Shown here in pieces: positions 8,831 through 35,360 of a stretch of 44,319 bases of DNA. Location: the NCBI RefSeq assembly GCF_003612555.1, contig NZ_RAZF01000024.1, positions 1 to 44,319 on the forward strand, written 5' to 3'. The notes beneath the pieces were generated by a model. It saw nothing but the letters and a program-made list of their open reading frames with translations. It was not told where the DNA came from and ran no database searches. The stretch comes from Acutalibacter sp. 1XD8-33 (GTDB lineage: Bacteria; Bacillota; Clostridia; Oscillospirales; Acutalibacteraceae). Each line of letters opens with the position of its first letter. Positions within the stretch are counted from its first letter, which is position 1. Both the position numbers and the translations under genes were made by a program.

Positions 8831-9114
8831 TATAGTTTTTGAGAATGTGTTTTGGCCTCCGGCAGGGAGAGGCTTCGCCCCCTCCACCCCTACCACCTTT
8901 TGAAAAAGGTGGACGAAAACTTTACCCTGGCTAGCTGTGTGGGATAAATCCTGACATGTTGCGCGGTCAAGGGGCGGGGAAAATCGCCAGTGGCGATTGT
9001 TCTGGACCGAGCCGGCAGGCGGGACAGGCCCCTTGCGAGGTGTGGAGCAGAGCTCCACAACCTTGCCGTAGTGCGAAGCACGAAGGCCACATAGTATTGC
9101 TCTCAAAACCTATA
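8831..9114. repeat. TATAG-ended hairpin-mosaic element, copy 1
   Basis: The left end TATAGTTTTTGAGA (8831) and right end TCTCAAAACCTATA (9101-9114) are imperfect inverted repeats. Inside, in order, are TTGGCCTCCGGCAGGG, a CCACC/GGTGG stem near 8897-8916, AATCGCCAGTGGCGATT (8982-8998), the GACCGAGCCGGCAGG signature (from 9005), and a GGAGCAGAGCTCC stem. The copy at 13554-13841 is nearly the same throughout, and a diverged copy is at 20141-20475. No protein of its own is credible. With 8726-8830 it fills the gap upstream of the serpin gene. Confidence 0.85.
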
Positions 9115-9119
9115 CTTTA

Positions 9120-9207
9120 CAAAACTTTAGAACTTGTACCGAGCAGTCACTTCCCAGCTGAATTTGCCGGAAAGGGGGATACAAACGCCTATAGGTACGG
9201 CTTCTTA
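9120..9207. repeat. Half copy of the outer element seen at 13521-13962
   Basis: GCTGAATTTGCCGGAAAG and ACGCCTATAGGTACGGCTTC match the right part of the larger element at 13521-13962. The end reads GGTACGGCTTC-TTA; on the minus strand that is TAA-GAAGCCGTACC, where TAA is the stop codon of the gene at 9205-9681. The left half is missing here. Confidence 0.7.
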
Positions 9208-9681
9208 TATTCCGAGAAGCCCTTTCAGCCAGTTGGCCAGCGCGTCCGCCCCGTATACCGCCAGCATGATCAGCACGAGAAAAGCGGCCGCCGACAGCAC
9301 CTCCGCCGCGATTCTCTTGGCGCTAGGGGGCGTTTCTTCCCCAGCGTCCTCCTCTACATCCTCCTCCCGCTTCCTATCCGCTTTGGCGGCCAGCTCCCCT
9401 GCCTTGTCCCAGTCCGCATACCGCACATAGACATTCTGATCGGTTGGCATGGAGTCTCCATCAAAATTGAAATAGCTCTGCCCGGCATTGGCGTCCTGGG
9501 TTTCATATTCGATTTCTCCCGCGCTCAGGGCCTCCCCCAGGCGTTGGGCTCCATACAGGTCCGTCTTTTGCAGCAGGACAAAATCCCTTCCAGCCACCGG
9601 ACGCAATTTCCCGCTGCGGCAGGCGGGGCATCTCTTTCTGCCCTCCTCGCAAATCCGGCGGCATTGCGCGCAATATAGCAC
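9205..9681 (-). CDS. Zinc-ribbon protein with C-terminal membrane helix, unknown function
   Basis: This 158-residue protein starts at GTG 9681 after a GGAGGGGG stretch. Two CxxC pairs (LYCAQCRR and RCPACRSGK, residues 4-22) form a zinc ribbon. A middle domain includes SYFNFDGDSMPTDQNVYVRY, followed by an acidic linker and one membrane helix (about residues 128-148, LSAAAFLVLIMLAVYGADA). It should be a membrane-tethered cytoplasmic protein. It is co-directional with the HD-domain gene upstream (gap 18 bp), probably one operon. I do not recognise a named family. Confidence 0.7.
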   Translation of the reverse strand: MLYCAQCRRICEEGRKRCPACRSGKLRPVAGRDFVLLQKTDLYGAQRLGEALSAGEIEYETQDANAGQSYFNFDGDSMPTDQNVYVRYADWDKAGELAAKADRKREEDVEEDAGEETPPSAKRIAAEVLSAAAFLVLIMLAVYGADALANWLKGLLGI

Positions 9682-9699
9682 GGTTCTCCCCCTCCCTGT

Positions 9700-10359
9700 T
9701 TAAATCAGCTCCTGGCCGTTAATCGCCAGCTTGAATTCCAAGCCCAATTTTTCCGCCGCTTTCCGGCAGAGAATCATCCGGGCCATAAAAATCTCGAAAT
9801 ATTCCATCACAGAGCTGAAGCTGGGATCCACCTCCAGACTGAGCCAAATGGCTGCCTGCTCCTTGTGAATTTTCAGCTCTGAGCTGGTAACAGAGTAATT
9901 CACCCGGTCGTGGATGTCAAAGCTATGAGGGTCCTTGCCGCGAACCCGGGTGCGGCGCACATCGGATTTGTCCGCTAGAATCAAAGCGGCGGCCTCGGCG
10001 CTTACTGGCACACCAGTACCCTCGTCGTGGTTGCCGATAGCCGTGGCGACCATGGCGATCTCCTCTGGAGGAAAGCCCATATTGTCCAGCAGGCGGAAAG
10101 CCATCACTGCGCCGCTCTGGCTGTGGTCCACCCGATTTACCAGATTGCCGATGTCGTGGAGGTATCCCGCGATTTTCGCCAGCTCTACCTGTCGGGGCGG
10201 ATATCCCAGCTCCTGAAGAATCCGTCCCGCTGTCTCTGACACCCGGCCCACATGGGCGAAGCTGTGCTCTGTAAAGCCCAAAGCCGCCATGGAGGCATCC
10301 GCCTGGGCAATGTAGGTTTTGATGGCCGGGTCCTTCTTGATCTGCTCGTAGCTCGTCAT
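9700..10359 (-). CDS. HD-domain phosphohydrolase
   Basis: This 219-residue protein has the metal-binding HD pattern: His36 (SFAHVGRV), His68-Asp69 (YLHDIGN), His79 and His111-Asp112 (GNHDEG). The family hydrolyses phosphate esters, often of nucleotides; the substrate is not evident. The phrase ADKSDVRRTRVR with NYSVTSSEL is typical of stand-alone HD proteins in Firmicutes. The start ATG 10359 follows AGGAG. It is the first gene of a likely two-gene operon with the zinc-ribbon gene. Confidence 0.8.
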   Translation of the reverse strand: MTSYEQIKKDPAIKTYIAQADASMAALGFTEHSFAHVGRVSETAGRILQELGYPPRQVELAKIAGYLHDIGNLVNRVDHSQSGAVMAFRLLDNMGFPPEEIAMVATAIGNHDEGTGVPVSAEAAALILADKSDVRRTRVRGKDPHSFDIHDRVNYSVTSSELKIHKEQAAIWLSLEVDPSFSSVMEYFEIFMARMILCRKAAEKLGLEFKLAINGQELI

Positions 10360-10402
10360 AGCCGTCTCCTATTCATTTTTTTCAAAAATATCAATCTCTT
10401 TG

Positions 10403-10438
10403 AACGGCGGGGGCAGGAATGTTCCTGCCCCCGCCGTT
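10403..10438. terminator. Strong GC-rich hairpin between tRNA-Pro and the HD-domain gene
   Basis: AACGGCGGGGGCAGGAA (10403-10419) pairs perfectly with 10422-10438. The tRNA is transcribed from the minus strand, so this hairpin lies about 80 bases past its 3' end and upstream of the HD gene. No pure T-run follows, so termination is likely but not certain. Confidence 0.6.
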
Positions 10439-10518
10439 TCCTATAGGATATTCTCAATACAAATGATAAATCCGAACACATTCCCCACCTGGAGGATTGC
10501 GTTCGGATTATCATGAGA

Positions 10519-10594
10519 TGGTCCGAGTGGCGAGACTTGAACTCACGGCCTCTTGACCCCCAGTCAAGCGCGCTACCAACTGCGCCACACCCGG
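10519..10594 (-). tRNA. tRNA-Pro (anticodon GGG)
   Basis: The minus strand folds into a full cloverleaf: acceptor CCGGGTG/CACTCGG (one G-U pair), D stem GCGC/GCGC with loop AGTTGGTA, anticodon stem CTTGA/TCAAG with loop CTGGGGG (anticodon GGG), T stem GTGAG/CTCGC with loop TTCAAGT, discriminator A, and an encoded CCA (10521-10519). It reads codons CCC and CCU. Confidence 0.95.
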
Positions 10595-10688
10595 ACAACG
10601 TATATATTATAGCGGATCTTTCTGTAAAATGCAACCCCTTTTTTTAATATTTTTTTAGAAAATTCTGAAAAAATATTTCAAAAAATAT

Positions 10689-10717
10689 TTGCTTTTTTAG
10701 CGTATATGAGATATAAT
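10689..10717 (+). promoter_or_regulatory. Sigma-A type promoter of the dehydrogenase operon
   Basis: TTGCTT (10689-10694), 17-bp spacer, TATAAT (10712-10717). The leader to ATG 10853 is about 130 bases long. It contains a small GGGAA...CCC stem near 10774-10793 but no riboswitch I can recognise. Confidence 0.75.
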
Positions 10718-10852
10718 GAACCCAAGTTATCTATAATTGGAGTTTTCCTCAACCGTAAAATAACTGGTTTTGCGGGAATACCGGGAATCCCCAATTTGGA
10801 TTTATAGTCTGAAACCAAGGATTTCCCTAGAAAAAAGGAGTGTGCTCTCAAA

Positions 10853-11911
10853 ATGAAAGTAGCTGTCATCGGCTGCGGCACCATCGCCAACGCGGCCCAT
10901 ATCCCGTCCTATATGAACAACCCCGAGGCGGAAATCAAGTATTTCTGCGATATCATCCTCGAGAGGGCCGTCACCGCCGTCAATAAATATGGCTGCGGGA
11001 CCCCGGTGGAGGATTACCACGACGTGCTCAACGACCCCGAGGTCCAGGCGGTCTCCGTGTGTACCCCGAATAACGTCCACGCGCAGATCGCCATCGACGC
11101 CCTGCGCGCCGGGAAGGACGTGCTCTGCGAGAAGCCCGCCGCCCGCACCTACGCCGAGGCCCTGGAGATGCAGAAGGCCCAGCACGAGACTGGCCGGGTG
11201 CTGAACATCGGCGTGGTGAACCGCTTCAACGACAGCGTGAACCGCATCAAACAGTATATCGACGCGGGCAAGCTGGGGAACATCCACCATGTATACGCCA
11301 GCTTCCGGGCCCACCGGTCTATTCCCGGCCTGGGCGGGGCTTTTACCACCAAGGCCATCGCCGGCGGCGGCGCGCTCATCGACTGGGGCGTCCACTACCT
11401 GGACATTGTCATGTACTGCTGCGGAGACCCCAAGGTGAAAACCGTCACCGGCGAGACCTTCTGCAAGCTGGGCAAGGACATGAAAAACTACACCTACGTG
11501 GACATGTGGGCCGAGGCCAGCAGCAATAAGGAGAGCGGTGTCTACGACGTGGACGACTCCGTCACCGGCATGATCCGTACCTCCGGCCCGGTGATTACCC
11601 TGAACGGCGCCTGGGCCCAGAACATCGGCGAGAGCGAGACCTATATCGACTTTATGGGCGACAAGGGTGGCATCCGCCTGCGCTACGGTGCGGACTTCAC
11701 CTATTATACTGCAGAGAACGGCGCGTTGGTGAGCACCACGCCCCAGTTCAAAATGCGGGACCATTTCCAGAACGAGATCGATGCCTTTGTGGACTGCGTT
11801 AAGACCGGCAAAAAGCTGCCCTCCCATATTGACACGGTGATTATTACTGCCGAGATGATGCAGGCCATTTACGACTCCGCCGAGCAGCACAAAGAGATCC
11901 AGCTGGCGTAA
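10853..11911 (+). CDS. Gfo/Idh/MocA family NAD(P)-dependent oxidoreductase
   Basis: This 352-residue protein has the N-terminal Rossmann fold with GCGTIANAAH (residues 7-16), CTPNNVHAQIAIDALRAGKD, and the family signature EKPAA (93-97) with the catalytic Lys. The C-terminal half has GGGALIDWGVHYLDIVMYCC, with the conserved Asp and His of the active site. The family oxidises sugars, inositols or their derivatives; the substrate is unknown. AAAGGAG lies before ATG 10853. The Cys-rich gene follows after 18 bp, and the TIM-barrel isomerase-like gene after a repeat insertion. This set looks like a small sugar or cyclitol catabolic operon. Confidence 0.92.
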   Translation: MKVAVIGCGTIANAAHIPSYMNNPEAEIKYFCDIILERAVTAVNKYGCGTPVEDYHDVLNDPEVQAVSVCTPNNVHAQIAIDALRAGKDVLCEKPAARTYAEALEMQKAQHETGRVLNIGVVNRFNDSVNRIKQYIDAGKLGNIHHVYASFRAHRSIPGLGGAFTTKAIAGGGALIDWGVHYLDIVMYCCGDPKVKTVTGETFCKLGKDMKNYTYVDMWAEASSNKESGVYDVDDSVTGMIRTSGPVITLNGAWAQNIGESETYIDFMGDKGGIRLRYGADFTYYTAENGALVSTTPQFKMRDHFQNEIDAFVDCVKTGKKLPSHIDTVIITAEMMQAIYDSAEQHKEIQLA

Positions 11912-11929
11912 GGGCCGGGGGAGAGAGCC

Positions 11930-12466: not shown

Positions 12467-12660
12467 GAACCTGTACCCACAACCTGCAATCACCGTCTGA
12501 GCGGCCTTTTTCGAGCTGTCCGGCCTTAAATTTCCTCGAAATAAAACAATTGATTTCTAAGAGCTGCCTGCAGCTCTGCAAATTTGCTTTGAGCAACCCG
12601 AAAAATTCAGAGCTCAAGAGCTTTTGCTCATCCGGTAACTTCGGTTATGAATACAGGTTC
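12467..12660. repeat. MITE-like element copy B
   Basis: It begins GAACCTGTACCCACAACC (12467), right after the TAA stop of the previous gene, and ends GAATACAGGTTC (12649-12660), followed by TAA. It shares CCTGCAATCACCGTCT, AAAATTCAGAGCTCAAGAGC and GTAACTTCGGTTATGAATAC with copy A but lacks the 18-bp-arm hairpin insert of copy A. It separates two genes that otherwise look like one operon. Confidence 0.85.
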
Positions 12661-12679
12661 TAAAAAAGGAGAGATTGTG

Positions 12680-13519: not shown

Positions 13520-13520
13520 A

Positions 13521-13962
13521 TTAAGAAGCTGTACCGACAGGATTTGCGTTAACTATAGGTTTTGAGAGTGTGTTTTGGCCTCCGGCAGGGAGGGGCTTCG
13601 CCCCCTCCACCCCTACCACCTTTTGAAAAAGGTGGACGAAAACTTTACCCTGGCTAGCTGTGTGGGATGAATCCTGACATGTCGCGCGGTCAAGGGGTGG
13701 GGAAAATCGCCAGTGGCGATTGCTCTGACCCGACCGAACCGGCAGGCGAGACAGGCCCCTGGCGTGGTGTGGAGCAGAGCTCCACGACCTTGCCGTAGTG
13801 CGAAGCACGAAGGCCACACAGTATTGCTCTCAAAAACTATACGATTTTCGAGCAAATGCAATGGGGAGAAGCAATCTGGCGACTGGCAAGCTTTCACAAC
13901 GCCACTCCCCGGCTGAATTTGCCGGAAAGAGGAATGCAAACGCCTATTGGTACGGCTTCTAA
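13521..13962. repeat. Outer MITE-like element interrupted by a hairpin-mosaic element
   Basis: The left end TTAAGAAGCTGTACC (13521-13535) and right end GGTACGGCTTCTAA (13949-13962) are imperfect inverted repeats, related to the ends of copies A and B (TAAGAA-CCTGTA). The interior is occupied by the TATAG-ended element at 13554-13841. Outer-element sequence resumes after it (GCTGAATTTGCCGGAAAG). The matching half copy is at 9120-9207. Confidence 0.75.
13554..13841. repeat. TATAG-ended hairpin-mosaic element, copy 2
   Basis: TATAGGTTTTGAGAG (13554) and CTCTCAAAAACTATA (13827-13841) form the ends. The contents match copy 1 (8831-9114) almost base for base, including AATCGCCAGTGGCGATT (13705-13721) and the GACCGAACCGGCAGGCGAGA signature (13732-13751). 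It is 288 bp against 284 bp for copy 1. Confidence 0.85.
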
Positions 13963-13977
13963 GAATTGGGGAGTTTT

Positions 13978-14111: not shown

Positions 14112-14114
14112 TTA

Positions 14115-14155
14115 AGGGAATGTTTCCGGAAAAGAGGAACATTCCCTCTTTTTTT
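14115..14155 (+). terminator. Rho-independent terminator
   Basis: AGGGAATGTTTC (14115-14126) pairs with GGAACATTCCCT (14136-14147), followed by a run of T to 14155. It ends transcription from the dehydrogenase/isomerase side, past three nested repeats. Confidence 0.85.
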
Positions 14156-14166
14156 GCCGAAATGGG

Positions 14167-20106: not shown

Positions 20107-20140
20107 TGGGTATCGCCCCTTTCCAAAGGCTTTTTCAGAG

Positions 20141-20475
20141 TATATTTTTTGAGAGTATATCGTGGCCTCCGGCAGCTGGGGGTTTCTTCTCACCTGCCGG
20201 TTCGGTCGGTGCTTGACGGTCCCCACAGGGGACCAGCACCCCCAGACCCCTGACCAGCTGTAAACTTGGCGTTGCCAAGTTTACAGCTGGACCGGCCAAA
20301 ACCGTCCAGGGTAAAAGTTTCGTCCACCTTTTTAAAGGTGGTGGGGGTAGAGGGGGGGTGACAATCGCCAGTGGCGATTTCCCGTCGCTGACCGAGCCGG
20401 CAGGCGAGACTCGAAGCCCCTCCCGCCGGAGAACGCGTTTCTGTGCGTTCAGAGGCCATGGTTTCACTCTGGACC
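20141..20475. repeat. Hairpin-mosaic element, copy 3 (diverged)
   Basis: The left end TATATTTTTTGAGAG leads to GTGGCCTCCGGCAG as in copies 1 and 2. The interior holds a reversed signature (20188-20207), a GGTCCCC-aca-GGGGACC stem, GTAAACTTGG-cgtt-CCAAGTTTAC, a CCACC/GGTGG stem, AATCGCCAGTGGCGATT (20363-20379), and the signature in direct orientation (20390-20409). It lies upstream of the TrmH gene on the minus strand. The right end near 20475 is uncertain. Confidence 0.7.
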
Positions 20476-21060
20476 AAACTTTTTGAAAAAAGTTTGGAAT
20501 AAAAACTCTTACCCTGGTTGGCTTTTGCGCACTCAGCCAGCCAGATTAAAATGTTTCGTAGACTTCGCTCTGCGAAGTCTTGCCTTTCTCAAAGGCGGTG
20601 GGGTTTGGGACAACGTCCCAAGGTTTTGCCCTTGACCTTAACATCCGATAAAATAACGCAGGAGGGTAGCATAAACGTCCCGGTGGGACGTTTTGCATAG
20701 GGGGGGTTACGCTTCCGCTCCGGTCGGCGCTGGTCCCCACAGGGGACCAGCGCCCCTCGTCGGGGGGCGTTCTGCCGGATACTTGGCAAAACCAAGTATT
20801 GCAGACAACGCTGCGAATCGACCGAGCCGGGGAAGCTCCCCGGTGGGGAAGAGTTCATGCAAGCATGAACTCTCCCGACCGAGTCGGCAGACGAGACCAG
20901 GCGAGACCCCTATCCCGACTGCGAAGCAGGCGAGAAGTTCCTGGGCCTTGGAACCAGCCGGCTGTATGGATGAGCGTATCCGCCAAAGGACGCTCTGGAC
21001 CAGCTGGAATCTGGACGCGCTGCCGCGAGAGCTCAGCCCCCATATCACTCCCCCAAAGTA
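20474..21060. repeat. Array of short perfect hairpins, no gene
   Basis: Successive stem-loops are: 20474-20497 (CCAAACTTTTT/AAAAAGTTTGG), 20560-20580 (AGACTTCG/CGAAGTCT), near 20607 (GGGAC-aac-GTCCC), 20673-20693 (AAACGTCCC-ggt-GGGACGTTT), 20726-20754 (13-bp perfect stem, loop ACA), 20771-20805 (ATACTTGG/CCAAGTAT inside TCTGC/GCAGA) and 20850-20873 (AGAGTTCATGC/GCATGAACTCT). The signature box is at 20877-20896. The part 20767-20905 recurs at 33228-33358. Coding potential is not credible. The remaining bases to 21138 hold no clear feature. Confidence 0.75.
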
Positions 21061-25690: not shown

Positions 25691-25744
25691 TATAGTAAAC
25701 GCAGTTGAAAAGAGGTATATCTCTTTTCAACTGCGTTTACTATA
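25691..25744. terminator. Perfect 24-bp inverted repeat after the MATE gene
   Basis: The arm TATAGTAAACGCAGTTGAAA continuing to AGAG (25691-25714) pairs without mismatch with 25721-25744 around the loop GTATAT. It can end transcription, but the following AAATTT is not a good U-run, and the stem is longer than a typical terminator. A small palindromic mobile repeat is the alternative. Confidence 0.6.
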
Positions 25745-26297
25745 AAATTTATGGAACAGATAAGCCGTCCGGCATGAAAAAACGGGCGGCTTTTTCTTTT
25801 GCCCTGTCAAAGCCTCCAGGGCTGAAAAAACTTGGGGCCCGCAGAGCGGGCGAATCCATCTTCCCTAGCCGGGGTACCCCCGGTGGCAAGACGCGATATC
25901 GCGCAAAGCAACGCGCTCGCCGGTGCTGGGAGATAGCAGGTCCACCGCGCCCGGGGTACCCCCGGTGGCAGGTCGCGACGTCGCGCAAAGCAACGCGCTC
26001 GCCGGTGCTGGGAGATAGCAGGTCCACCGCGCCGGGGGCTGGTCCGGGCGGGATTTTTCGATACCCCGAGTGCCATGCAGCGAGGGAAAAGTTTCGTTGT
26101 CTCACCTGCCGGTTCGGTCGGCGCTTGACGGTCCCCACCGGGGACCAGCGCCCTTTTCAAAGGTTGCGGGGTTTTTAGGGGGAGAGTTCGTAAGACGAAG
26201 TCTAACGAACTCTTGAGCCCAAGAGTTGACCGAATCTTTGATTTGGATCAACTCTAAACCGCCGGAGGCCTCCCCAAAAATAAAAAAATTCCAAAAT
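25745..26297. repeat. Hairpin-mosaic region between the MATE gene and the first binding-protein gene
   Basis: It contains a tandem duplication of about 82 bp (25871-25952 and 25953-26034), each copy opening GGGGTACCCCCGGTGGCA and ending GGTCCACCGCGCC. A partial block GGGCGGGATTTTTCGATA (about 26046) recurs after later genes. A reversed signature box lies at 26099-26118, a GGTCCCC/GGGGACC stem follows, and AGAGTT-based stems lie at about 26183-26254. It ends in GCCGGAGGCC just before the leader of the first binding-protein gene. No gene is seen. Confidence 0.75.
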
Positions 26298-26372: not shown

Positions 26373-27713
26373 ATGAAAAAGCTCATATCCATTCTTTTGG
26401 CCCTGTGCCTGCTCATCGCCCTGTTCTCCGCCTGCCAGAACAGCGAAGCCGAGAACAGCAAGCCCAAACTGGCCGCGAACCGGGACAAGGCCCCCTCCCG
26501 CCCGGAATTGACCCTCTGTCTGGACCTGTCCGGAAGAGTTGGCGGCGACGCCAGCGGGGATCTGAAGAATTTTCTGAAAACCTATGTGCCTGGATACCAG
26601 GAGGACTTCAACGTGACTGTGGAGAGCCTGAACGCCGGAAGCGAAAACCGGGAAAACGCCATGACCCGGGTCCGCACGGAGATGATGGCCGGGGCCGGGC
26701 CGGACCTGTTCCTCTGCAGCTGCCCGGATTCCCTGGACCCCGGCATGGCGGAGGACCTGTCCATCCCCATCATCACCGGGCTGTTCCCCTATCCCCGGGC
26801 GCTGATGGACCGGAACATGTTCCTGCCCCTGGACGAATACATGGAGGACGCGGAGTTCCTGGACCTGGACCAGCTCTATTCCCAGATCATGGAGGCCGGG
26901 CGGGGCGAAAAGGACCAGCAGCTGCTGCCCCTGGGCTGGACCACCGTGGCGGGACTCTTTGACAAGGAGGAGTACACCCTTGCCGAGGAGCTGCCTATGA
27001 CCTGGGACCAGATGCTCCAGAGCCAGGACCCCGGCGTGCAGCGAGCCTGCTGGGACTGGGAGTTCGGGGGCAGTCTGGGGGTGCTGGCGGACTACGAAAA
27101 GGACGTCCCCAGCTTCACCCTGGAGGAGCTTTCCGCCCAACTGGAGGGGGCGTTGAAGAATCTGGAACGGCGCGGGGCCGGGGAGTTTGACGGCGTCATG
27201 GGAATATGCGGAGAGTTCCTGGGCAAGCCGAATCCCTCCCATATCTGCTCCAAAAGCCCGGATTTCATCATGATTCCTCAATACAACCGGGACGGCGGTG
27301 CCACCGCGTATATTACGGCCTTTGGGGCGGTGAACGCCAACACGGAGTACCCAAAGGAGGCCTTTCAGGTGCTGGACTGCCTCTATAGCCGGGAGGCCCA
27401 GCAGAAGTCGGGGCTGTTCTCCTGGATCAGCGGCCTGCCCGTGCGCAAGGACCTGCTGAACGAGGACGGCAAGGTGGAGGAGCCCTTTGAGTTGGGGAGC
27501 AAGACCTACAAGAAATGGTACATGAGCCAGTGGAACTACCAGCAGCTCCAGAGTCTGGCGGAGCAGGTGAACGCCGTGGACTTCTTCAACCCCATGTATC
27601 AGGAGCTGACGGACCTGTGGAGCGAGTACCAGCGGGAGGAGGACCCCGGGGAGCGGCGGAAGCTTACAGAGGAGCACTACACCACCCTGAAGATGATGCT
27701 AGCTGAATCTTAG
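26373..27713 (+). CDS. ABC transporter solute-binding lipoprotein, paralog 1 of 5
   Basis: This 446-residue protein has a signal peptide with lipobox, Cys21 being the lipid anchor (MKKLISILLALCLLIALFSA then C). A mature family-1 extracellular solute-binding fold follows: MTRVRTEMMAGAGPDLFLC (about 90-108), MDRNMFLPLDEYME, EAGRGEKDQQLLPLGW and AFGAVNANTEYPKEAFQVLD. It should catch a sugar-like ligand outside the membrane for the permeases at 35497-37130. AGAAGGAGAAATT precedes ATG 26373. The last codons encode MMLAES, shared in form with the four paralogs. It is most similar to paralogs 3 and 5. The ligand is unknown. Confidence 0.88.
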   Translation: MKKLISILLALCLLIALFSACQNSEAENSKPKLAANRDKAPSRPELTLCLDLSGRVGGDASGDLKNFLKTYVPGYQEDFNVTVESLNAGSENRENAMTRVRTEMMAGAGPDLFLCSCPDSLDPGMAEDLSIPIITGLFPYPRALMDRNMFLPLDEYMEDAEFLDLDQLYSQIMEAGRGEKDQQLLPLGWTTVAGLFDKEEYTLAEELPMTWDQMLQSQDPGVQRACWDWEFGGSLGVLADYEKDVPSFTLEELSAQLEGALKNLERRGAGEFDGVMGICGEFLGKPNPSHICSKSPDFIMIPQYNRDGGATAYITAFGAVNANTEYPKEAFQVLDCLYSREAQQKSGLFSWISGLPVRKDLLNEDGKVEEPFELGSKTYKKWYMSQWNYQQLQSLAEQVNAVDFFNPMYQELTDLWSEYQREEDPGERRKLTEEHYTTLKMMLAES

Positions 27714-28110
27714 CCCGGGGTACCTCCGGCTGGGAGCCCCCGCAGGTAAGCCGCGCCGGGGTACCCCCGGTGGCAAGCCGCGATGTCGCACAAAGCGACG
27801 TGCTCGCCACTTCTAGGAGGTAGCTGGTCCACCGCGCCGAGAAGCCATCGTGGGGAGATCGCACCCAGGCTGGCAGAGTTTTGCGAATCAAAACGGAAAG
27901 ATAGACCGAGCATAGCGAATGTCTATCTTTTTGACACATGGCGAAAACTAGCTTTATCCTTTCGCTATTCTGTGCGCCATGTGCTGGGTCCGGGCGGGAT
28001 TTTTCGATACCCAGAGTTCCATGCAGCGAGGAAAAAGTTTCGTCCACCTTTTCAAAGGTGGTGGGGGTGGAGGGGGCAACGCCCCCTTCTCGCCGGAGGC
28101 CTCCCAATAA
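27714..28110. repeat. Hairpin-mosaic spacer after binding-protein gene 1
   Basis: It opens with the GGGGTACC / GGGAGCCCCCGCAGG / GGGGTACCCCCGGTGGCAAG module common to the ends of these genes. Then comes a 204-bp block (27837-28040) that has a same-length, near-identical copy at 35112-35315. A CCACC/GGTGG stem (28044-28061) and the closing box GCCGGAGGCC (about 28092) follow. No gene. Confidence 0.8.
27897..27932 (+). terminator. Rho-independent terminator after paralog 1
   Basis: AAAGATAGAC (27897-27906) pairs with GTCTATCTTT (27921-27930), followed by TT. It is part of the 204-bp block and is repeated after paralog 5. Confidence 0.75.
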
Positions 28111-28135
28111 AAAATAAAACAAAAATTCCCAAAAC

Positions 28136-28178
28136 GTGCAACCATTTTCCCAAAACCGGGATTCTTATAGGTAGAGAG
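28136..28178 (+). promoter_or_regulatory. Conserved leader box upstream of binding-protein gene 2
   Basis: This is the same box as at 26298 (GTGCAACCATTTTCCC, ACCGGGATTCTTATAGG, TAGAGAG), 30 bp before ATG 28208. Confidence 0.55.
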
Positions 28179-28207
28179 TTTTATTCCACCCAAAAGGAGA
28201 AATTATC

Positions 28208-29662
28208 ATGAAAAAGACCGTATCCGTTCTCTTGGCCCTGTGCCTGCTCTTCACGCTGTTCTCCGCCTGCCAGGGCGGTGAAACCGAGAGCAGCAAGCCC
28301 AAGCTAGCTGCTGAGGCCCAGAAGGAAAAAGCCGCCAGCTCCGCTCAGAGGGAAGAGGATGTGGAGGTGCTGCGGGTAGTGACAGACTTGGACTGCCGCA
28401 GCACGCTCATGGGCAGGGCTTCCAACGCCTCCCAGGGAAAGCGTACTTTTCAGACCATCCTCAAACATTTTGGCGGCACGCCCAGCGGCATAGAGGTGGA
28501 ACTGGAGATTCTTCCCGCCGAGATGGGCGGGCCCTACGACTCTGAGCTCACCCACCTGCGCACGGAGATCATGGGCGGGGGCGGGCCGGACGTGTTTCTC
28601 ATGTCCGGCTTTGGAGACGGCGGGAGTGCGACCCCGGCCAACACCCTGTTTCAGAATCCGGAGAGCGCCATGAAGAAGGGCTTCTTCCTGCCCCTGGACG
28701 ACTACATCGAGAACGCCCAGTTCATGGAGTTCGACAAGCTGGACCAGGGGGTCATGGCCGCTGGGCGCAACGACCAGGGTCAGGTGATCCTGCCCATGTT
28801 CTACCGGCTGAACGAGATCCAGATCAACCGGGAGATGGACCCCGCCCAGTTCCCCAGCGACTGGAACGGCGCCGCCGCCAGCGACAACGAGCTGGTCCAG
28901 TGGGCCGGAGCCCAGTGGGCGGGCTATGGCTTCCGGAACGCCTGCTTCGGGAAAATCGCGGACAACGAGAGCGAGGAGCTGCTCATCACCGGGGAGGAGC
29001 TTTTCCAGCGCACGAAGGAGGCGCTGGAGCTGTGCAAGGCATACGCCCCGGAGATGAGCCGTTTGCAGGAGCTTCAGGGCCAGGGGGACTACAACGTGTT
29101 CCTGAAAGAGGTCGCCGTCAATGTGACCCCTTGGGGGAGCGGGTATATCGCTATGGAGGATAACGTGAACTCCTCCTACGTGCTGAAAAACCCCCAGGGA
29201 GAGATCAGCGCGCCCATTGAGACATGGTGTGCCGTGAACAAGAACACCCAGCACCCCCAGGACGCGTTCTTCATCGTGGACCTGCTTCTAAGCAAAAAGT
29301 TCCTTCAGCAGGAGGATTTTTGGAACAAGGAGCCCTCTTATCAGTACCACCCGGACCAGATGACCTTTTTCTGGATGGCGGGGCAGGGCTATCTGCCGGT
29401 ATACAGTACGCTGCTCACCAACTCGAAAAATACCTATAAATTCGTCAACCCTTTGAACAACGCCCAGCGGAAGCTGCTGTCGAAAACCCGGGACGAGATC
29501 AGCTACGCCTATTTCACCAGCAACCTGGACCGGGAGATCGACCGGATGTATGGGGAGCTGTCCGTCAGGACCTACGTGGGGGAAGAGGTCACGGACGAGG
29601 AGATCCGCAAGGCCACGGAGAAGTGCTACACCACCCTGAAGATGATGCTGGCTGAATCTTGA
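28208..29662 (+). CDS. ABC transporter solute-binding lipoprotein, paralog 2 of 5
   Basis: This 484-residue protein has the same signal peptide and lipobox plan (Cys21). Its mature domain is close to paralog 4: FQTILKHFGGTPSGIEVELE, LTHLRTEIMGGGGPDVFLMS, GFFLPLDDYIENAQFM, VILPMFYRLNEIQ and WCAVNKNTQHPQDAFFIVDL. The C-terminal part DEEIRKATEKCYTTLKMM leads to LAES. AAAGGAG lies before ATG 28208. The paralog 2/4 type differs enough from the 1/3/5 type that a different ligand class is likely. Confidence 0.88.
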   Translation: MKKTVSVLLALCLLFTLFSACQGGETESSKPKLAAEAQKEKAASSAQREEDVEVLRVVTDLDCRSTLMGRASNASQGKRTFQTILKHFGGTPSGIEVELEILPAEMGGPYDSELTHLRTEIMGGGGPDVFLMSGFGDGGSATPANTLFQNPESAMKKGFFLPLDDYIENAQFMEFDKLDQGVMAAGRNDQGQVILPMFYRLNEIQINREMDPAQFPSDWNGAAASDNELVQWAGAQWAGYGFRNACFGKIADNESEELLITGEELFQRTKEALELCKAYAPEMSRLQELQGQGDYNVFLKEVAVNVTPWGSGYIAMEDNVNSSYVLKNPQGEISAPIETWCAVNKNTQHPQDAFFIVDLLLSKKFLQQEDFWNKEPSYQYHPDQMTFFWMAGQGYLPVYSTLLTNSKNTYKFVNPLNNAQRKLLSKTRDEISYAYFTSNLDREIDRMYGELSVRTYVGEEVTDEEIRKATEKCYTTLKMMLAES

Positions 29663-29872
29663 CGCCGAGGTCCTAGCGGACGGCAGGTCGCGACGTCGGG
29701 TAAAGCGACGCCCTCGGCGGTGGGATGGGGAAGCTCGTCTTTGGTGGAGGGATTACGTGGTCAAGGGGCGGAGACCTTGGCGTTGCCAAGTCTTGGCCCC
29801 TTGCAGGGTGTGGGACAGCGTCCCACGGTCTTGTCGTAGGCGGCGGTCTGTGCCGCCGGAGGCCAATAAATA
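29663..29872. repeat. Hairpin-mosaic spacer after binding-protein gene 2
   Basis: It opens with a diverged post-gene module (GGCAGGTCGCGACGTCG, AAAGCGACG). Stems follow: CTTGGCGTTGCCAAG near 29780, GTGGGACAGCGTCCCAC near 29810, and GGCGGCGGTCTGTGCCGCC ending in the GCCGGAGGCC box. No leader box is seen before paralog 3; the short AT-rich stretch to 29922 holds only the ribosome site. Confidence 0.7.
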
Positions 29873-29922
29873 CTTATAAAAAAATTCAAAACAACTCCAG
29901 CAAAATATAAGGGGGAATTCCC

Positions 29923-31206
29923 ATGAAAAAGTCACTGTCAGTTCTCTTGGCCCTGTGCCTGCTGGCCGCCCTGTTCTGCGCCTGCGGGAAAGGGGAGACC
30001 GCCTCCGGCTCCCAGGGCGAGGGGGATCTCTCCCAGCTGCCCCGGCTGACCCTGTGCGTGGACCTGGGCACCGAGGTCCTGGGTCCCCAGATCAGCCAGA
30101 TCACCGACGCCCTCCCCGGCAGCTGGAAAGAGTACATGGTGATTACCGAGACCGTGCCCGTGGACGGCCCGGAGCGGGAGAACACCCTGACCCGCCTGCG
30201 CACGGAAATCCTGGCCGGAAAGGGCCCGGACGTGTTCCTGTGCAACAACGCCGTCTGGGCGTTCCGGGGGACACGGGGGCTGTTCCCCTTCCCGGAAAAG
30301 GCCATGAAGAACCGGATCTTCCTGCCCCTGGACAGCTACATCGAGAAGGCTCAGTTTATGGACTGGGACAAGCAGGTCCCGGCAGTGATGGAGGCCGGGC
30401 GGGGAGAGGAGGGGCAGATGCTCCTACCCCTGGGCTTCAACCTGCCTGTGACGCTGTTCCCCAAGGAGACCGGAGGGCTCACGGAAAAGCTGCCCATGCC
30501 CTGGGCGGAATCTTTGGAAAGCGGCGACCGCCGGGTGAGTTATGCCGCCACCTGGTGCGGCCTGGAGGATATTCTGGGGCAGGTGGCGGACTACGGCAAG
30601 GACGCCCCCGTCTTCACGGAGGAGCATCTTCTAGAGATCGCGGAGAAGTGGGTGGATCAGAAGAACAGGATTGACCGGGGGGAGTACCCGGAGTTTACAG
30701 AGTATGTGCCGGATTTTGACAACTACCGCTCCCTGCCGGAGATCTGGACCGGCCCCGTCTATGGCTTCGGCGCGGAGATCGACCTGGAGGGCCAGGACTA
30801 CTACATGATCCCCGCCTGCAGCGAGGCGGGGGGCCTTACCGCCCAGATCAGCGCCTTCGGCGGCGTCAACCGGAACACCCAGATGCCCCAGGAGGCCTTC
30901 ACGCTGCTGGACTACATCATGAGCGAGAACATGCAGCGCACCTTTCTCTATGGCTACACCAACGGCTTCGCGCCCCAGAGGGGGTTGGCCCAGAAGGACA
31001 AGACCATTGGGGGCAAGACGGCCAGCCAGTGGAACATGGACCAGTATAACGGCCTGCTGGAAAAGATCGACCGGGCGGATTTTTATACGGAGGTGAACGA
31101 GCAGCTCTGGAGCATCCTATCCGCCGTGAACGAGGAGAGAAAGCCCCTGGAGTCCTCTGTGCACAAGGCCTACACCACCATACAGATGCTCCTGGCTGAA
31201 TCTTAG
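29923..31206 (+). CDS. ABC transporter solute-binding lipoprotein, paralog 3 of 5
   Basis: This is the shortest paralog, 427 residues. The lipobox variant is LFCAC with the anchor at Cys21. Binding-protein landmarks are LTRLRTEILAGKGPDVFLCN, LFPFPEKAMKNRIFLPLDSY, MEAGRGEEGQMLLPLGFNLP and AFGGVNRNTQMPQEAFTLLD. It ends MLLAES. AAGGGGG precedes ATG 29923. It groups with paralogs 1 and 5. It lacks the conserved 43-bp leader box, so its expression may differ or depend on read-through. Confidence 0.87.
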   Translation: MKKSLSVLLALCLLAALFCACGKGETASGSQGEGDLSQLPRLTLCVDLGTEVLGPQISQITDALPGSWKEYMVITETVPVDGPERENTLTRLRTEILAGKGPDVFLCNNAVWAFRGTRGLFPFPEKAMKNRIFLPLDSYIEKAQFMDWDKQVPAVMEAGRGEEGQMLLPLGFNLPVTLFPKETGGLTEKLPMPWAESLESGDRRVSYAATWCGLEDILGQVADYGKDAPVFTEEHLLEIAEKWVDQKNRIDRGEYPEFTEYVPDFDNYRSLPEIWTGPVYGFGAEIDLEGQDYYMIPACSEAGGLTAQISAFGGVNRNTQMPQEAFTLLDYIMSENMQRTFLYGYTNGFAPQRGLAQKDKTIGGKTASQWNMDQYNGLLEKIDRADFYTEVNEQLWSILSAVNEERKPLESSVHKAYTTIQMLLAES

Positions 31207-31550
31207 CGGGGAGCCCCCGCAGGCGCGACGCGATATCTCGCAAAGCCCGGGGTACCCCCGGTGGCAGGTCGCGATGTCGCGCAAAGCGACGCGCTCGCCA
31301 CTTCTAGGAGATAGCTGGTCCACCGCGCCGGGGGTGGGAACCGGGCGGGATTTTTCGATGACCAGAGCGCCATGAAGCGAGGGAAAAGTTTTTGATCCAA
31401 ACTTTTTTCAAAAAGTTTGGCGCAAGTGTGGGTCGCGCAGGCCCATGACCTTGCCGTAGCCGCGGGGAAGATTGCCAGTGGCAATCGTTCTGACCCGACC
31501 GAGTTGGCAGACGAGACCCTTTGCGGCGGAGGCCCCATATTACTCAAAAA
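31207..31550. repeat. Hairpin-mosaic spacer after binding-protein gene 3
   Basis: It contains GGGGAGCCCCCGCAGG, GGGGTACCCCCGGTGGCAGG, the GGTCCACCGCGCC end, a GGGCGGGATTTTTCGAT partial block (about 31340), a CCAAACTTTTTT/AAAAAGTTTGG stem, ATTGCCAGTGGCAAT (a variant of the fixed palindrome), the signature GACCGAGTTGGCAGACGAGA (31497-31516) and the closing box GCGGAGGCC. No gene. Confidence 0.75.
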
Positions 31551-31592
31551 AATCATCGCAAGAGCTCAATAAAACAAAAAGGAGCTATTCCC

Positions 31593-33047
31593 ATGAAAAA
31601 GATCGTATCCGTTCTCTTGGCCCTGTGCCTGCTCATTGCCCTATTCTCCGCCTGCCAAGGTGGCCAAACCGAGAGCGGCAAGCCCAAGCTGGCCGCCGAG
31701 GCTCAGAAGAAAAAAGCCGTCGCCAGCGCTGCGGCCAGCCAGGCCCTGCAAGAAGAGGAGGGGATTAAGCCACTGCGAGTAGTGACGGACAGCTATCAGA
31801 TTCGAAGTTGGTTCAGCGAGAGCAAGTCCGCTCCGGATCTGGGCAAAAAGGCCTTCCAGGAAATTCTGAAGCATTTCGGCGGCACACCCAACGGCATGGA
31901 GGTGGAACTGGAGGTGCTGCCCCTGGAGAGTGGGCGCTACGAGGCGGAACTGACGCATCTGAGGGCGGAGCTCATGGCCGGGGCGGGACCGGACGTGTTC
32001 CTGCTCTCCGGCTTCGGGGGCTGCGACGCCAAGCTGCCGGAGAGCAGCCTGTTCCCCAATCCCGAGCACGCCATGGCCTCCGGCTTCTTCCTGCCCCTGG
32101 ACGAGTACGTGGAGAACGCCAGTTTCATGGACCTGGGCAAGCTGCAAAAGACGGTGATGGACGCCGGATGTTATGAGGGAAGCCGGTACATTCTGCCCAT
32201 GTTCTACCGCCTGCCCTTTGGCGACATCTACCGGGAGGGGAACCCGGTGAATCCGGCGGAGCTGCCCGCCAGCTGGGACGAGGCCCTGGTCCACGAGGAA
32301 CAGCTGGTCCGGGACAACTATGGGATGCAGATGTTTTCCGTTGGCTTCCGTCAGGCGGTTTTCGGGCAGATTGCAGACAACGTGAACGAGGAGTTGTTGA
32401 TCGAACAGGAGGAGCTTTTTCAGCGCACGAAAGAGGCGGTGGAGCTATACCGGGAGATGAAGAGCCACTATACCCCTATCACCTATGATGAGACCGTCAA
32501 CTCGTCCTGGGGGGATATAGTAAGCGGAGGAAAGGCAACGAGCAGCGTCCCGGACGAGACCTTTTATGCGCCCCGGAACAGCCAGGGCCAGATTGCCGCC
32601 GCTGTGGAGCACTGGTGCGCGGTGAACAGGAACACCCAGCATCCAGAGGACGCCTTCTTCATCGCGGACATACTGCTCAGCAAGGAATTTCTCAGCCTGG
32701 AACGGTTCTGGGGCAAGGAAAATACCGCCCATGACGGCAAGGGCAAAGAGACGAAAATGTTCTGGATGGCGGCCACGGGAAATGTGCCGGTGTATGCGGA
32801 CTATCTGACGACGGGCATATCCTATCGGAACGCGACGACCTATAAGAATCTTCGGGAAGCCCTGGCGGAGGCGGAGAGCGATATCGCCTATGTGTATTTT
32901 ACCGGCAATGTGGACAAGGAGATGGACCGGATGTTCCGGGAGTTCATCGACAAGGTGGACGCCGGGGAGGAGATCACGGACGAGGAGATCCGCAAGGCCA
33001 CGGACAAGTGCTATAGCACCATGAAAATGATGCTGGCTGAGTCTTGA
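31593..33047 (+). CDS. ABC transporter solute-binding lipoprotein, paralog 4 of 5
   Basis: The start is ATG 31593, 8 bases after AAAGGAG; the frame extends to 31521 through repeat sequence. At 484 residues it matches paralog 2 in length and in FQEILKHFGGTPNGMEVELE, GAGPDVFLLSGFGG, YILPMFYRLPFGDIY and WCAVNRNTQHPEDAFFIADI. The tail DEEIRKATDKCYSTMKMMLA is followed by ES. The lipid anchor is at Cys21. It probably arose by duplication with paralog 2 and then diverged in the middle (about residues 225-320). Confidence 0.88.
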   Translation: MKKIVSVLLALCLLIALFSACQGGQTESGKPKLAAEAQKKKAVASAAASQALQEEEGIKPLRVVTDSYQIRSWFSESKSAPDLGKKAFQEILKHFGGTPNGMEVELEVLPLESGRYEAELTHLRAELMAGAGPDVFLLSGFGGCDAKLPESSLFPNPEHAMASGFFLPLDEYVENASFMDLGKLQKTVMDAGCYEGSRYILPMFYRLPFGDIYREGNPVNPAELPASWDEALVHEEQLVRDNYGMQMFSVGFRQAVFGQIADNVNEELLIEQEELFQRTKEAVELYREMKSHYTPITYDETVNSSWGDIVSGGKATSSVPDETFYAPRNSQGQIAAAVEHWCAVNRNTQHPEDAFFIADILLSKEFLSLERFWGKENTAHDGKGKETKMFWMAATGNVPVYADYLTTGISYRNATTYKNLREALAEAESDIAYVYFTGNVDKEMDRMFREFIDKVDAGEEITDEEIRKATDKCYSTMKMMLAES

Positions 33048-33400
33048 CGGCGGGGAGCCCCCGCAGGTAAGTCGCGCCGGGGTACCCTCGGTGGCAAGAC
33101 GCGATATCGCACAAAGCAACGCGCTCGGCGGTGGGAATAGAAAGCTCGTCCACCGTGCCGGGGGTTGGTGGGGGGGGGTTCGCGGTCCAGGTGCGTTAGG
33201 CACCTGGTGGGGTTTTGGGGTGAGTGTTCTGCCGGATACTTGGCAAAGCCAAGTATTGCAGACAAGCTACGAACCGACCGAAGCGGGGAAGCTCCCCAGT
33301 GGAGAAGAGTTCATGCAAGCATGAACTCTCCCGACCGAGTCGGCAGACGAGACCAGCTGAGACCCAAAGCCCCAAGCTCTTGCCGTAGGCCCCTCAATAA
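33048..33400. repeat. Hairpin-mosaic spacer after binding-protein gene 4
   Basis: It opens with GGGGAGCCCCCGCAGG and the GGGGTACC module. It then carries a close copy (33228-33358) of the hairpin array at 20767-20905: ATACTTGG/CCAAGTAT, a GGGGAAGCTCCCC stem, AGAGTTCATGC/GCATGAACTCT and the signature at 33333-33352. No gene. Confidence 0.8.
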
Positions 33401-33427
33401 AACAAAAACAAAAAATTTTTCAAAAAT

Positions 33428-33470
33428 ATGCAACCATTTTCCAAAAACCGGGATTCTTATAGGTAGAGAG
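33428..33470 (+). promoter_or_regulatory. Conserved leader box upstream of binding-protein gene 5
   Basis: TGCAACCATTTTCC, AACCGGGATTCTTATAGG and TAGAGAG match the boxes at 26298 and 28136; it lies 32 bp before ATG 33502. Confidence 0.55.
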
Positions 33471-33501
33471 ATCTTTAAACTATCAACAAGGAGAAATTGT
33501 C

Positions 33502-35016
33502 ATGAAAAAAATCATATCCATTCTGTTAGTACTGTGTTTGACCATCGCCCTGTTCTCTGCCTGCCAGAACGGGGAGACCCCCAGTTCCAGTGCCCCCGGC
33601 GGGGAAAGCGGCGGGGAGCCCCAGCCCGAAGTGACCCTGGCCCCGGCGGCGGAGGAATCAAAGCCGGAAGAATCGCAGCCGGAGAACAGCGACACGGTGC
33701 GGGTGCTCATCGACCTGAAATTCGCCCGGGAGGTATGGGTGGAGGGCACGACCACCCGGAACAGCGACTACACCATCCGCAAGGCCATGCAGCAGGCCGG
33801 TTGGGAGGGCGATTTCGCCTTTGAGTACCTGCCCCATGAGGGAGAGGAGCGGACGAACGCCCTTCAACGTATGCGAATCGAGATTATGGCCGGGAAAGGC
33901 TCGGACCTGTTCATTCTGGCCAGCGCCGGCATGCTCTATGGGCCCGAACCCCTGTTCCGCTACCCGGAGCAGATGATGGACCGGAGCACTTTCCTGCCCC
34001 TGGACAGCTACATTGAAAACGCGAGCTATATGGAGTGGGACAAGCTCATCCCCCAGGTGATGGAGGCCGGGCGCAACGAAGAGGGCCAGCAGATTCTGCC
34101 CTTGTGCTACTCCATGCCCGTGACCCTCATTGAGGCGGACAAGGCCTCCCACGAGCACAGCCCGGAGACGACCTTCCAGGATCTGGCGGAGAGCGGCGAC
34201 CTGGTCTTGAAGCTGGCGGCGGCCTCCAACCGGGTGATGCCAAGCGAGCAGAGTGGGGGAATGAAGTACTATCGCTCCAGCCAGTGGCGACTGGAGAGCG
34301 TGTTCCCCAGGCTGGCGGATTACGATACCGAGGAGCTGGCCTTCACCCAGGACGAGCTGATGGACGTGATCCATACCCAGCTGGAGCTGGGGGCTCTGTG
34401 GGATTCTCCCGACCGACCGGCGGCGTTTCAGGAGCAGCTGATGGCGGAGATGAGCGAGACCGGCGATTCCATGGACCCCTATTACGAGGGAATCGGCAAT
34501 CCCTCCCACAGCTCCTCAGAGGAGGACCGGGCCTACACCATGATCCCCCTCTACAACACCCGGGGGGGCTGCACCGCGGCGGTGACCTGTTACGCCGCCA
34601 TCAACCGCAACACAAAGCATCCGGAGGAAGCCTTTCTCCTGCTGGACTATCTCATGAGCAAGGAATGTATGCAGACCAGCTTTTATGAGCCGGTTTTTAC
34701 CTTTGGCCTGCCGGTGCACCGGGAGCTGCTTCAGCCCGAGGAGAAGATCCCGGGCATAGGCGGTATGCGCTATGACATGAATCAGGAAAACTATGAGGAG
34801 CTTCAGAGCCTGCTGGGAAGCGTCACCGGCTCCAGGTTCCGGGACGTGCTGGATGTGCAGCTGGAAGAGATGATGGCCGACGTGAGCTCAAAACATTTTC
34901 TGGATACCCACGACGACCCCCAGTGGGACGACATGCGGGAATACTACGAGGATTCCATTGAGGATATGGTGGACGAGCGCTACCGCCTCATGAAGATGAT
35001 GCTGGCCGAGTCCTAG
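33502..35016 (+). CDS. ABC transporter solute-binding lipoprotein, paralog 5 of 5
   Basis: This is the longest paralog, 504 residues. A lipobox with Cys21 is followed by a Ser/Glu/Pro-rich linker (about 25-60) and a binding-protein fold: ALQRMRIEIMAGKGSDLFIL, MMDRSTFLPLDSYIENASYM, QVMEAGRNEEGQQILPLCYS, YAAINRNTKHPEEAFLLLDY. It ends YRLMKMMLAES. It groups with paralogs 1 and 3. CAAGGAG precedes ATG 33502. The terminator and 204-bp block that follow are the same as after paralog 1, so the array begins and ends with matching spacers. The permease operon follows, with its own promoter. Confidence 0.88.
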   Translation: MKKIISILLVLCLTIALFSACQNGETPSSSAPGGESGGEPQPEVTLAPAAEESKPEESQPENSDTVRVLIDLKFAREVWVEGTTTRNSDYTIRKAMQQAGWEGDFAFEYLPHEGEERTNALQRMRIEIMAGKGSDLFILASAGMLYGPEPLFRYPEQMMDRSTFLPLDSYIENASYMEWDKLIPQVMEAGRNEEGQQILPLCYSMPVTLIEADKASHEHSPETTFQDLAESGDLVLKLAAASNRVMPSEQSGGMKYYRSSQWRLESVFPRLADYDTEELAFTQDELMDVIHTQLELGALWDSPDRPAAFQEQLMAEMSETGDSMDPYYEGIGNPSHSSSEEDRAYTMIPLYNTRGGCTAAVTCYAAINRNTKHPEEAFLLLDYLMSKECMQTSFYEPVFTFGLPVHRELLQPEEKIPGIGGMRYDMNQENYEELQSLLGSVTGSRFRDVLDVQLEEMMADVSSKHFLDTHDDPQWDDMREYYEDSIEDMVDERYRLMKMMLAES

Positions 35017-35360
35017 CCGGGGTACCCCCGGCGGGGAGCCCCCGCGGGTACGTCGCGATGTCGCGCAAAGCGACGCGCTCGGCGGTGGGAATAGAAAGCT
35101 CGTCCACCGCGCCGAGAAGCCATCGCGGAGAGATCGCACCCAGGCTGGCAGAGTTTTGCGAAGCAAAACGGAAAGATAGACCGAGCATAGCGAGTGTCTA
35201 TCTTTTTGACACATGGCGAAACCTAGCTTTATTCTTTCTCTATTCTGTGCGCCATGTGCTGGGTCCGGGCGGCATATTTCGATACCCAGAGCGCCACGTA
35301 GCGAGGGAAAAGTTTGGTGGGGTACTTAGGGGCGACGCCCCTAAGCCGCCGGAGGCCATA
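35017..35360. repeat. Hairpin-mosaic spacer after binding-protein gene 5
   Basis: It opens with GGGGTACCCCCGGCGGGG and GTCGCGATGTCGCGCAAAGC. The 204-bp block (35112-35315), twin of 27837-28040, follows, then a short GGGGCGACGCCCC stem and the closing GCCGGAGGCC (35345). No gene. Confidence 0.8.
35172..35207 (+). terminator. Rho-independent terminator after paralog 5
   Basis: AAAGATAGAC (35172-35181) pairs with GTCTATCTTT (35196-35205), followed by TT. It is identical in design to the terminator at 27897. Confidence 0.75.

Follow-up and report, generated by a model that had tools for sequence, protein, structure and literature searches.

Mosaic intergenic regions of Acutalibacter sp. 1XD8-33 as probable stacks of small mobile hairpin elements

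The 44,319-nt stretch of the Acutalibacter sp. 1XD8-33 genome analysed here (contig NZ_RAZF01000024.1, positions 1 to 44,319; hereafter the window) has long gaps between its genes that are filled by mosaics of short repeats. An earlier reading of the letters alone (the original prediction) had described a list of such gaps as built from one kit of parts, and this is borne out: the linkers are common to the gaps and the perfect hairpins between them differ. A signature box, GACCGAGYYGGCAGRCGAGA, was said to occur eight times, and all eight positions were confirmed with a single offset of one base (26100, not 26099). Comparison of its surroundings in distant genomes indicated that the box is the 3' part of a discrete folded unit of about 52-70 nt, here called unit U. 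We consider it probable, at roughly 0.7, that small, mobile, non-autonomous hairpin elements, unit U among them, have stacked up to form the mosaics.

From its 5' side, unit U consists of a closing stem (P1), a hairpin with an NGT-type loop (P2), often a further hairpin (P3), a C, GACCGA, the stem P4 and GAGA, where P4 is a three-base stem enclosing GGCA. The features of the window are as follows; composite elements and mosaic regions carry no strand, and the bounds of the mosaic regions were set by eye:

8831-9114, composite element with terminal inverted repeats (TIRs) TATAGTTTTTGAGA...CTCAAAACCTATA, holding one folded unit
8977-9024, plus strand, folded unit U in the first composite element, with its box at 9005-9024 and 4 nt fewer than the unit at 13700
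13554-13841, second copy of the composite element
13700-13751, plus strand, folded unit U (model R1 match)
20145-21060, the window's largest mosaic, one branched nested palindrome
20188-20239, minus strand, folded unit U
20358-20409, plus strand, folded unit U
20820-20830, plus strand, 5' half of a host box (GACCGA-GCC-GG), split by a nested unit
20831-20897, plus strand, 67-nt unit in the host P4 loop at GG^CA
20898-20906, plus strand, 3' half of the host box (CA-GGC-GAGA)
25840-26275, mosaic intergenic region preceding the row of five related genes
25869-26038, 82-bp tandem duplication within the mosaic 25840-26275
26100-26151, minus strand, folded unit U (model R1 match)
27714-28110, mosaic intergenic region akin to 35017-35360, with hairpins lost or replaced between the two
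29664-29875, mosaic intergenic region without the signature box
31207-31545, mosaic intergenic region
31465-31516, plus strand, folded unit U with P2 arms GATTGCC/GGCAATC
33048-33395, mosaic intergenic region
33276-33286, plus strand, 5' half of a host box (GACCGA-AGC-GG), split by a nested unit
33287-33353, plus strand, 67-nt unit in the host P4 loop at GG^CA, near-identical to 20831-20897; host stem differs
33354-33362, plus strand, 3' half of the host box (CA-GCT-GAGA)
35017-35360, mosaic intergenic region
38259-38305, plus strand, isolated end fragment, GCCGCCGGAGGCC with a AAAACATCGTCCCC tail

The sequence AATCGCCAGTGGCGATT occurs exactly at 8982, 13705 and 20363, and the end fragment at 38259-38305 has matches elsewhere in this genome and in some relatives. 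Throughout the 844 kb of the genome that was read, long gaps consist of linkers (e.g., GGGTAAAAGTTTCG and GGTCTTGCCC) and hairpins with locus-specific stems, which agrees with the claim that linkers are kept while stems change. The accompanying claim that whole units are not copied proved too strong, as one element is present both at 8831-9114 and at 13554-13841, its two copies agreeing in 270 of 288 aligned columns. The region 20120-21060 folds as a single branched nested palindrome (z -14.7, 20 shuffles), and a further locus (L080) folds likewise, with z values of -13.7 and -11.1 for its two strands. The genes amid these mosaics include five related ones in tandem (26373-35016), with a mosaic gap after each; the four that were tested against Pfam had no match at E 1e-5. 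Two BPD_transp_1 permease genes lie downstream of the five.

A test for covarying stems had been proposed along with the original prediction. Forty-seven units, hand-picked from 71 with near-duplicates and several units of poor P1 register omitted, were aligned without gaps, and 12 of the 15 pairs had changed on both arms. The covariation score was 0.655, compared to 0.205 for shuffled alignments (0/500 reached 0.655) and at most 0.123 when partners were slid, showing that P1, P2 and P4 change on both arms together. Helix 1 looks better in the 47 units than in all 71 because the units of poor register were left out; in all 71, where P1 was not selected for pairing, 278 of 355 P1 cells were Watson-Crick (67-126 with the partner slid), the remainder being 9 G-T, 4 A-C and 64 other. 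The constancy of the box columns is largely by construction, since units were found via the box pattern, and unpaired columns outside that pattern (13, 15, 23-26) vary. Eighteen of the 71 units have GGGAA/TGACC as P1, which could form a tandem G-A step in place of two ordinary pairs. When no structure was supplied, RNAalifold predicted P2, P4 and an additional C36-G51 pair around a possible tandem G-A step. In the 69 units of the longer type, the P2 arm pairs are of 19 different kinds and the P3 hairpins of 42. One unit (L164, reverse complement, about 7871-7967) has a P3 loop that seems to contain additional hairpins.

Units also invade one another. In 7 of 222 half boxes, six of them clean, another unit interrupts the P4 loop at GG^CA and the matching half follows beyond it, compared to 0/222 with the stem reversed and 2/222 when the search was made upstream. 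One of the seven, on contig C28, had been paired with the half that belongs to the inner box, and two cases on contig C17 are copies of each other. Two of the nests lie in the window (20820-20906 and 33276-33362) and the others elsewhere in the genome. Both window nests hold a nearly identical 67-nt insert in hosts with different stems (GCC/GGC and AGC/GCT), reflecting either two insertions or a later change of both arms across the insert. Nesting, together with an outer TIR element at some loci, builds the mosaics. In two other genomes, units or decayed units were seen at TAAAGG^ inside a different intergenic repeat (L424-L427 in G056 and L428-L430 in G090), which runs CCTTG...TAAAGG and is often then followed by GGGGACC, indicating that repeat families invade one another.

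The box repeats are neither local nor due to chance: with up to three mismatches, the window has 8 matches to the signature box against 0.01 expected, a somewhat wider form (up to two mismatches) has 267 matches in the 3.62 Mb genome and two when the pattern is read backward, and other genomes carry the box as well. The possibility raised beforehand, that genome-wide and comparative searches would find the boxes in this window only, can therefore be set aside. At least one box (up to one mismatch) was found in 24 of 40 genomes, this one included, spread over four of 16 genera, and within the genus the number in that survey ranges from 210 in this genome to 0 in some others; three relatives have 48 (G007), 111 (G014) and 80 (G023) boxes and another, G010, is box-free. 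A scan of named genomes, which demanded a box with the final C, returned at least 113 stretches; among the matches listed (80), titles are mostly of Clostridia, with carriers such as Eubacterium coprostanoligenes, Neglectibacter sp. X58, Lachnospiraceae bacterium AC2029 and rumen assemblies, and one box-bearing contig bears the title Alistipes. A model of the short unit type, scanned with strict filters and at most 37 candidates scored per genome, matched in 9 of 157 genomes of the class (own included), in scattered families. In a typed-unit search, plasmids gave three partial matches, none covering more than 80% of the unit length, and phages gave three records. The patchiness of the short-type matches across the class is consistent with horizontal spread, for which unit-carrying phages are a plausible route. 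Three contigs of G000 (C6, C12 and C14) start at a box (base 16), so units appear to break the assembly and copy numbers may be underestimates.

A described RNA family was rejected as an explanation, as there was no Rfam 15 match in the window, 17 loci and one 251-base stretch that were scanned; membership of a catalogued repeat family, the other outcome that might have undone the prediction, did not emerge there, insertion-sequence catalogues not having been searched. Literature searches, confined to open-licence papers, returned no description of this element in titles or the starts of abstracts, and no paper when five box stretches were entered as letters.

Besides gut bacteria, their viruses carry units: scans of viral contigs found them within phage genes, and three such genes, all of one methylase family, have unit-free relatives. 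A loose-pattern scan, filtered for perfect P4 (as in the phage-frame and autonomous-version analyses), yielded no additional unit among the matches listed. The phage locus L203, with a unit in a C-5 methylase gene, has a net 63 additional bases relative to the unit-free loci L204 and L205, with 145 of 148 positions identical in the left flank. Relative to the more distant L206, L407 has a net excess of 66 bases, flanked by ATGGGG and AAAAAC; for the second unit of L196, the net excess over the more distant L232 is 63. There was no target-site duplication at these three filled/empty pairs; unit U is absent from the same place in relatives, adjoins GG and lacks a target duplication, and thus, judged from sequence, looks mobile. 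Searches for an empty site for L404, and for the unit of two Ruminococcus phages, found none. Three phage proteins were scanned: the L199 and L196 proteins gave C-5 cytosine methylase matches (L196 below the curated cut-off) and that of L198 had no match. Twenty distinct phage units have a recognisable P1, and through six of these a long reading frame stays open (L196 twice, L199, L273, L404 and L407, representing four sites). Splicing of the unit out of transcripts was considered and seems unlikely, as the filled phage genes are open and in frame.

The GG that adjoins these units recurs elsewhere. It lies directly 5' of 68 of 81 named-genome units (background 0.117), 16 of 21 phage units (background 0.04) and 31 of 60 own units (background 0.184), the start of P1 being less sure in the last group. 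Units also lie at TGGGG^ in the genes of L096, L126 and L137, which we take to be TnpV-like. In bacterial genomes the flanks of units form a closing helix of at least 6 bp more often than shuffled partners do (26/60 own units vs. 0.18 when shuffled; 20/81 named-genome units vs. 0.10). Phage units rarely sit in such helices, and hence a hairpin target is not required. Crude gene models placed 47 of 99 boxes in open reading frame (ORF) models and the others between genes in all orientations (15, 15, 13 and 8), on either strand, with no preference for gene orientation seen; in only two cases was the frame open for over 100 codons to either side of the box, and the P4 arms of one of these two boxes do not pair. 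By eye, two back-to-back units occur at two places on the minus strand of L422 (G125 C9) before tRNA T-arm-like sequence, near a tRNA-Pro gene at 903-976. L142 has a similar T-arm-like look, and ARAGORN finds no tRNA there.

The stems of these hairpins are well kept. A general scan, demanding at least seven Watson-Crick pairs, found 345 of 386 hairpins near boxes to be perfect, the departures including 6 G-T and 13 A-C in unit orientation. For P2, departures were 5 G-T vs. 7 A-C in the own genome and 2 vs. 5 elsewhere; because at least five of seven Watson-Crick pairs were demanded for P2 in units, its percentages and helix 2 are inflated and only this G-T vs. A-C comparison is meaningful. P4 departures outside the own genome were 2 G-T vs. 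1 A-C. Perfect hairpins with no G-T preference indicate that RNA selection alone is not the obvious cause. Among 133 own-genome unit pairs with at most three differences in 40 upstream bases and perfect P4 in both, 78 have different P4 stems, i.e., P4 stems turn over faster than the adjoining sequence. The units at 87,435 and 90,705 of contig C6, for example, are identical in 40 bases upstream and 20 downstream and are one compensated P4 pair apart. Overall, conversion or templated repair of the DNA seems to be what keeps the stems perfect, although RNA selection may also act, on P4 above all.

These properties are compatible with a mechanism in which unit U would be recognised as a folded single strand and moved in trans by an enzyme. 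The strand would be that bearing GACCGA...GAGA, since the bases flanking P4 could form tandem G-A pairs on that strand and cannot on the other. Stems would be kept perfect and exchanged mainly at the DNA level, not by RNA selection alone, candidate processes being hairpin-templated repair, or short gene conversion among copies that number in the hundreds. No autonomous version, in which the halves of a unit would enclose a gene, was seen: 155 boxes with perfect P4 included 30 without a recognised P2 and yielded 4 orphan 5' halves, and the halves and P2-less boxes among the matches listed had a decayed, mismatched or nested look.

Candidate movers were also sought, the original prediction having proposed a RAYT-like or other transposase with matching ends; none was found in searches for Y1, IS110 and DDE_3. 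Y1_Tnp matches occur in 6 of 25 genomes of the genus, and at E 0.001 there are none in the box-rich G007, G014 and G023, of which G014 (87%) and G023 (86% complete) could each have a missed gene. This genome has one complete Y1 gene and two fragments; the 3.4 kb locus of the complete gene contains no box, nor does that of the first fragment, and the locus of the second contains one. RAYT/IS200 as a general partner was therefore rejected, as was IS110 (no PF01548 match in G007, G014 and G023). Reverse transcriptase matches, found in 11 of 25 genomes of the genus, have no clear relation to box number (one each in G007 and G014, none in G023). As for the outer element, a TA-flanked TIR element encloses the stack at some loci and is copied whole: inverted repeats of the TATAGTTTTTGAGAG type bound 8831-9114, 13554-13841 and three other pairs in the 844 kb. 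No empty site was found for it that would show the TA at its ends to be a target duplication. The only DDE_3 match of the genome has an upstream stop in its frame and no box within 3.1 kb, and no matching ends were seen around it by eye.

Several observations weigh against mobility as we propose it. The three filled/empty pairs represent one gene family and two sites, one of which is common to L199/L203, L407 and the first unit of L196, so these may trace to a single insertion. L203 is one base off a clean insertion with the likely ends, and its junction may thus have a one-base looseness. Among 80 methylase relatives that were retrieved, the box is missing from the whole retrieved stretch in 77 and present in 3, and only in L203 does it lie at this site. 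Among the TnpV-like genes, L096 is out of frame and L126 is missing a piece, leaving only L137 in frame (by eye). Outside the filled/empty pairs, pairing is conceivable between the G that precedes the unit and the C that precedes the box, in which case some of the GG may belong to the unit itself. Closing helices are not enriched at phage units (1/21 vs. 0.05 shuffled), no moving enzyme was found (Y1_Tnp and IS110 having been searched in three unit-rich relatives), and ordinary recombination explains part of the stem exchange. Finally, own-genome P4 departures are 12 G-T vs. 2 A-C, as would be expected from RNA or single-strand selection.

The last of these observations is also among the attractions of reading the unit as a structured RNA, regulatory or processing, whose stems covary because its fold is selected. 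This is unlikely in our estimation: the strong covariation, the possible tandem G-A pairs around P4 and in one P1 class, and the C36-G51 pair all suit it, but P2 and the general scan lack a G-T excess, the boxes lie in ORF models or between genes of every orientation on either strand, their number falls from 210 to none within one genus, and units inside phage genes are missing from the same place in relatives. Of the readings offered by the original prediction, a mobile hairpin family with stem exchange fits best and now has natural filled and empty sites to rest on, and a modular RNA is less favoured. A little less likely than a structured RNA is that there is no dedicated mobility and palindromes grow and reshuffle by template switching, recombination and duplication. 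The shortness of the self-alignments in the genome (2753 of the 2811 of 40-1500 bp at ≥93% identity are below 150 bp), the persistence of perfect stems and the compensated pair on contig C6 are in its favour; a complete unit present or absent at two sites of phage methylase genes, the GG preference, and units in other phage frames and tRNA-like sequence (by eye) tell against it.

Both remaining alternatives, each of which we regard as very improbable, assign the movement to a known type of transposase or element. A family of repetitive extragenic palindromes (REPs) and their mosaics (BIMEs) moved by a Y1 transposase of RAYT or IS200 type is suggested by high-copy palindromes, inverted pairs, insertion into palindromes and the lack of target duplication, all of which resemble REPs, and the genome does have a complete Y1 gene; the absence of Y1_Tnp from G007, G014 and G023, its presence in box-free G010, the box-free loci of the complete gene and first fragment, and the lack of strand bias relative to GC skew (odds ratio 1.0), which is a further point against our own proposal, do not fit. 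Similarly, an outer TIR element of miniature inverted-repeat (MITE) type, presumably like IS630 or mariner elements, might carry everything with the inner hairpins as passengers, as the five pairs of TA-flanked repeats, the first two being whole copies, might suggest; the phage units at filled/empty sites, however, have no such ends, which already weakens this explanation, and the sole DDE_3 match, with its upstream stop, no box nearby and no matching ends seen by eye, also counts against it.

Compared to described systems, unit U appears to be a small mobile palindrome akin to known ones that has neither the tag and transposase of REPs nor the terminal repeats and duplication of MITEs. REPs and BIMEs are intergenic palindromes present in hundreds of copies, in inverted pairs and mosaics, with alternative complementary stems and some inserted in palindromes (PMC3733652, PMC2817692). 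Unit U is likewise palindromic, in high copy (267 boxes/3.62 Mb) and in mosaics, but its 52-nt units start with P1 and end in GACCGA-P4-GAGA, with no GTAG/CGTC tag at the ends as aligned (CGTC and GTAG words were seen beside other mosaic hairpins), and it differs further in its multi-helix fold with a shared box, its self-nesting and its copies in phage genes; three unit-rich relatives searched for a Y1 transposase yielded none. Rickettsia palindromic elements are described as palindromes of about 150 bp lying in frame in unrelated protein genes (PMC10969869); unit U is also in frame in protein genes (six phage units, four sites), but belongs to another bacterial class, is about half as long, adjoins GG and nests, a comparison of descriptions and not of sequences. 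The mitochondrial double-hairpin or repetitive hairpin elements of fungi and sponges are small and mobile, those of Allomyces reportedly having no flanking duplications (PMC2800124). Unit U works alike in this respect, although we claim no membership; those elements are organellar, and unit U has three or four helices, again by description and not by sequence. Yeast mitochondrial GC clusters, which are palindromic, merge and shuffle, have putative AG or ACT target duplications (PMC4478555), unlike unit U, for which none was seen. The ends of unit U, in contrast to those of a MITE, are not mutual inverted repeats and its filled sites have no duplication; only the outer element, with its TIRs and TA ends, is MITE-like.

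Other repeats were noted alongside these. A near-perfect 54-bp palindrome at 25691-25744 of the window, with ends TATAGTAAACGCA/TGCGTTTACTATA, belongs to a second TA-flanked family with 31 end matches and six paired copies in the 844 kb; a copy lies in the mobile region L071 (about 2262-2361), by eye within a gene. A 63-bp tandem repeat at 4193-4526 (5.3 copies; 126-bp period, 97% matching) overlaps open reading frames, and a different hairpin module forms three head-to-tail repeats on contig C6 of G000 (81889-82298, by eye).

A bolder form of our proposal is that unit U represents a protein-free element carried by bacteria and phages: its folded single strand would be what is recognised, and it would enter DNA at GG with no target duplication, invade other copies of itself and have its stems rewritten as pairs during movement or repair, served by an enzyme of a kind new to small palindromic repeats. 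This we advance tentatively, at less than an even chance. Small palindromic repeats are usually known just as fixed intergenic relics; here the target is short, units nest and lie in frame in phage genes, and empty sites exist in nature, which makes the movement testable. The free exchange of stems beside conserved sequence raises the question of whether a single-stranded fold is the substrate. The case also cautions that strong covariation can mark a mobile element instead of a functional RNA.

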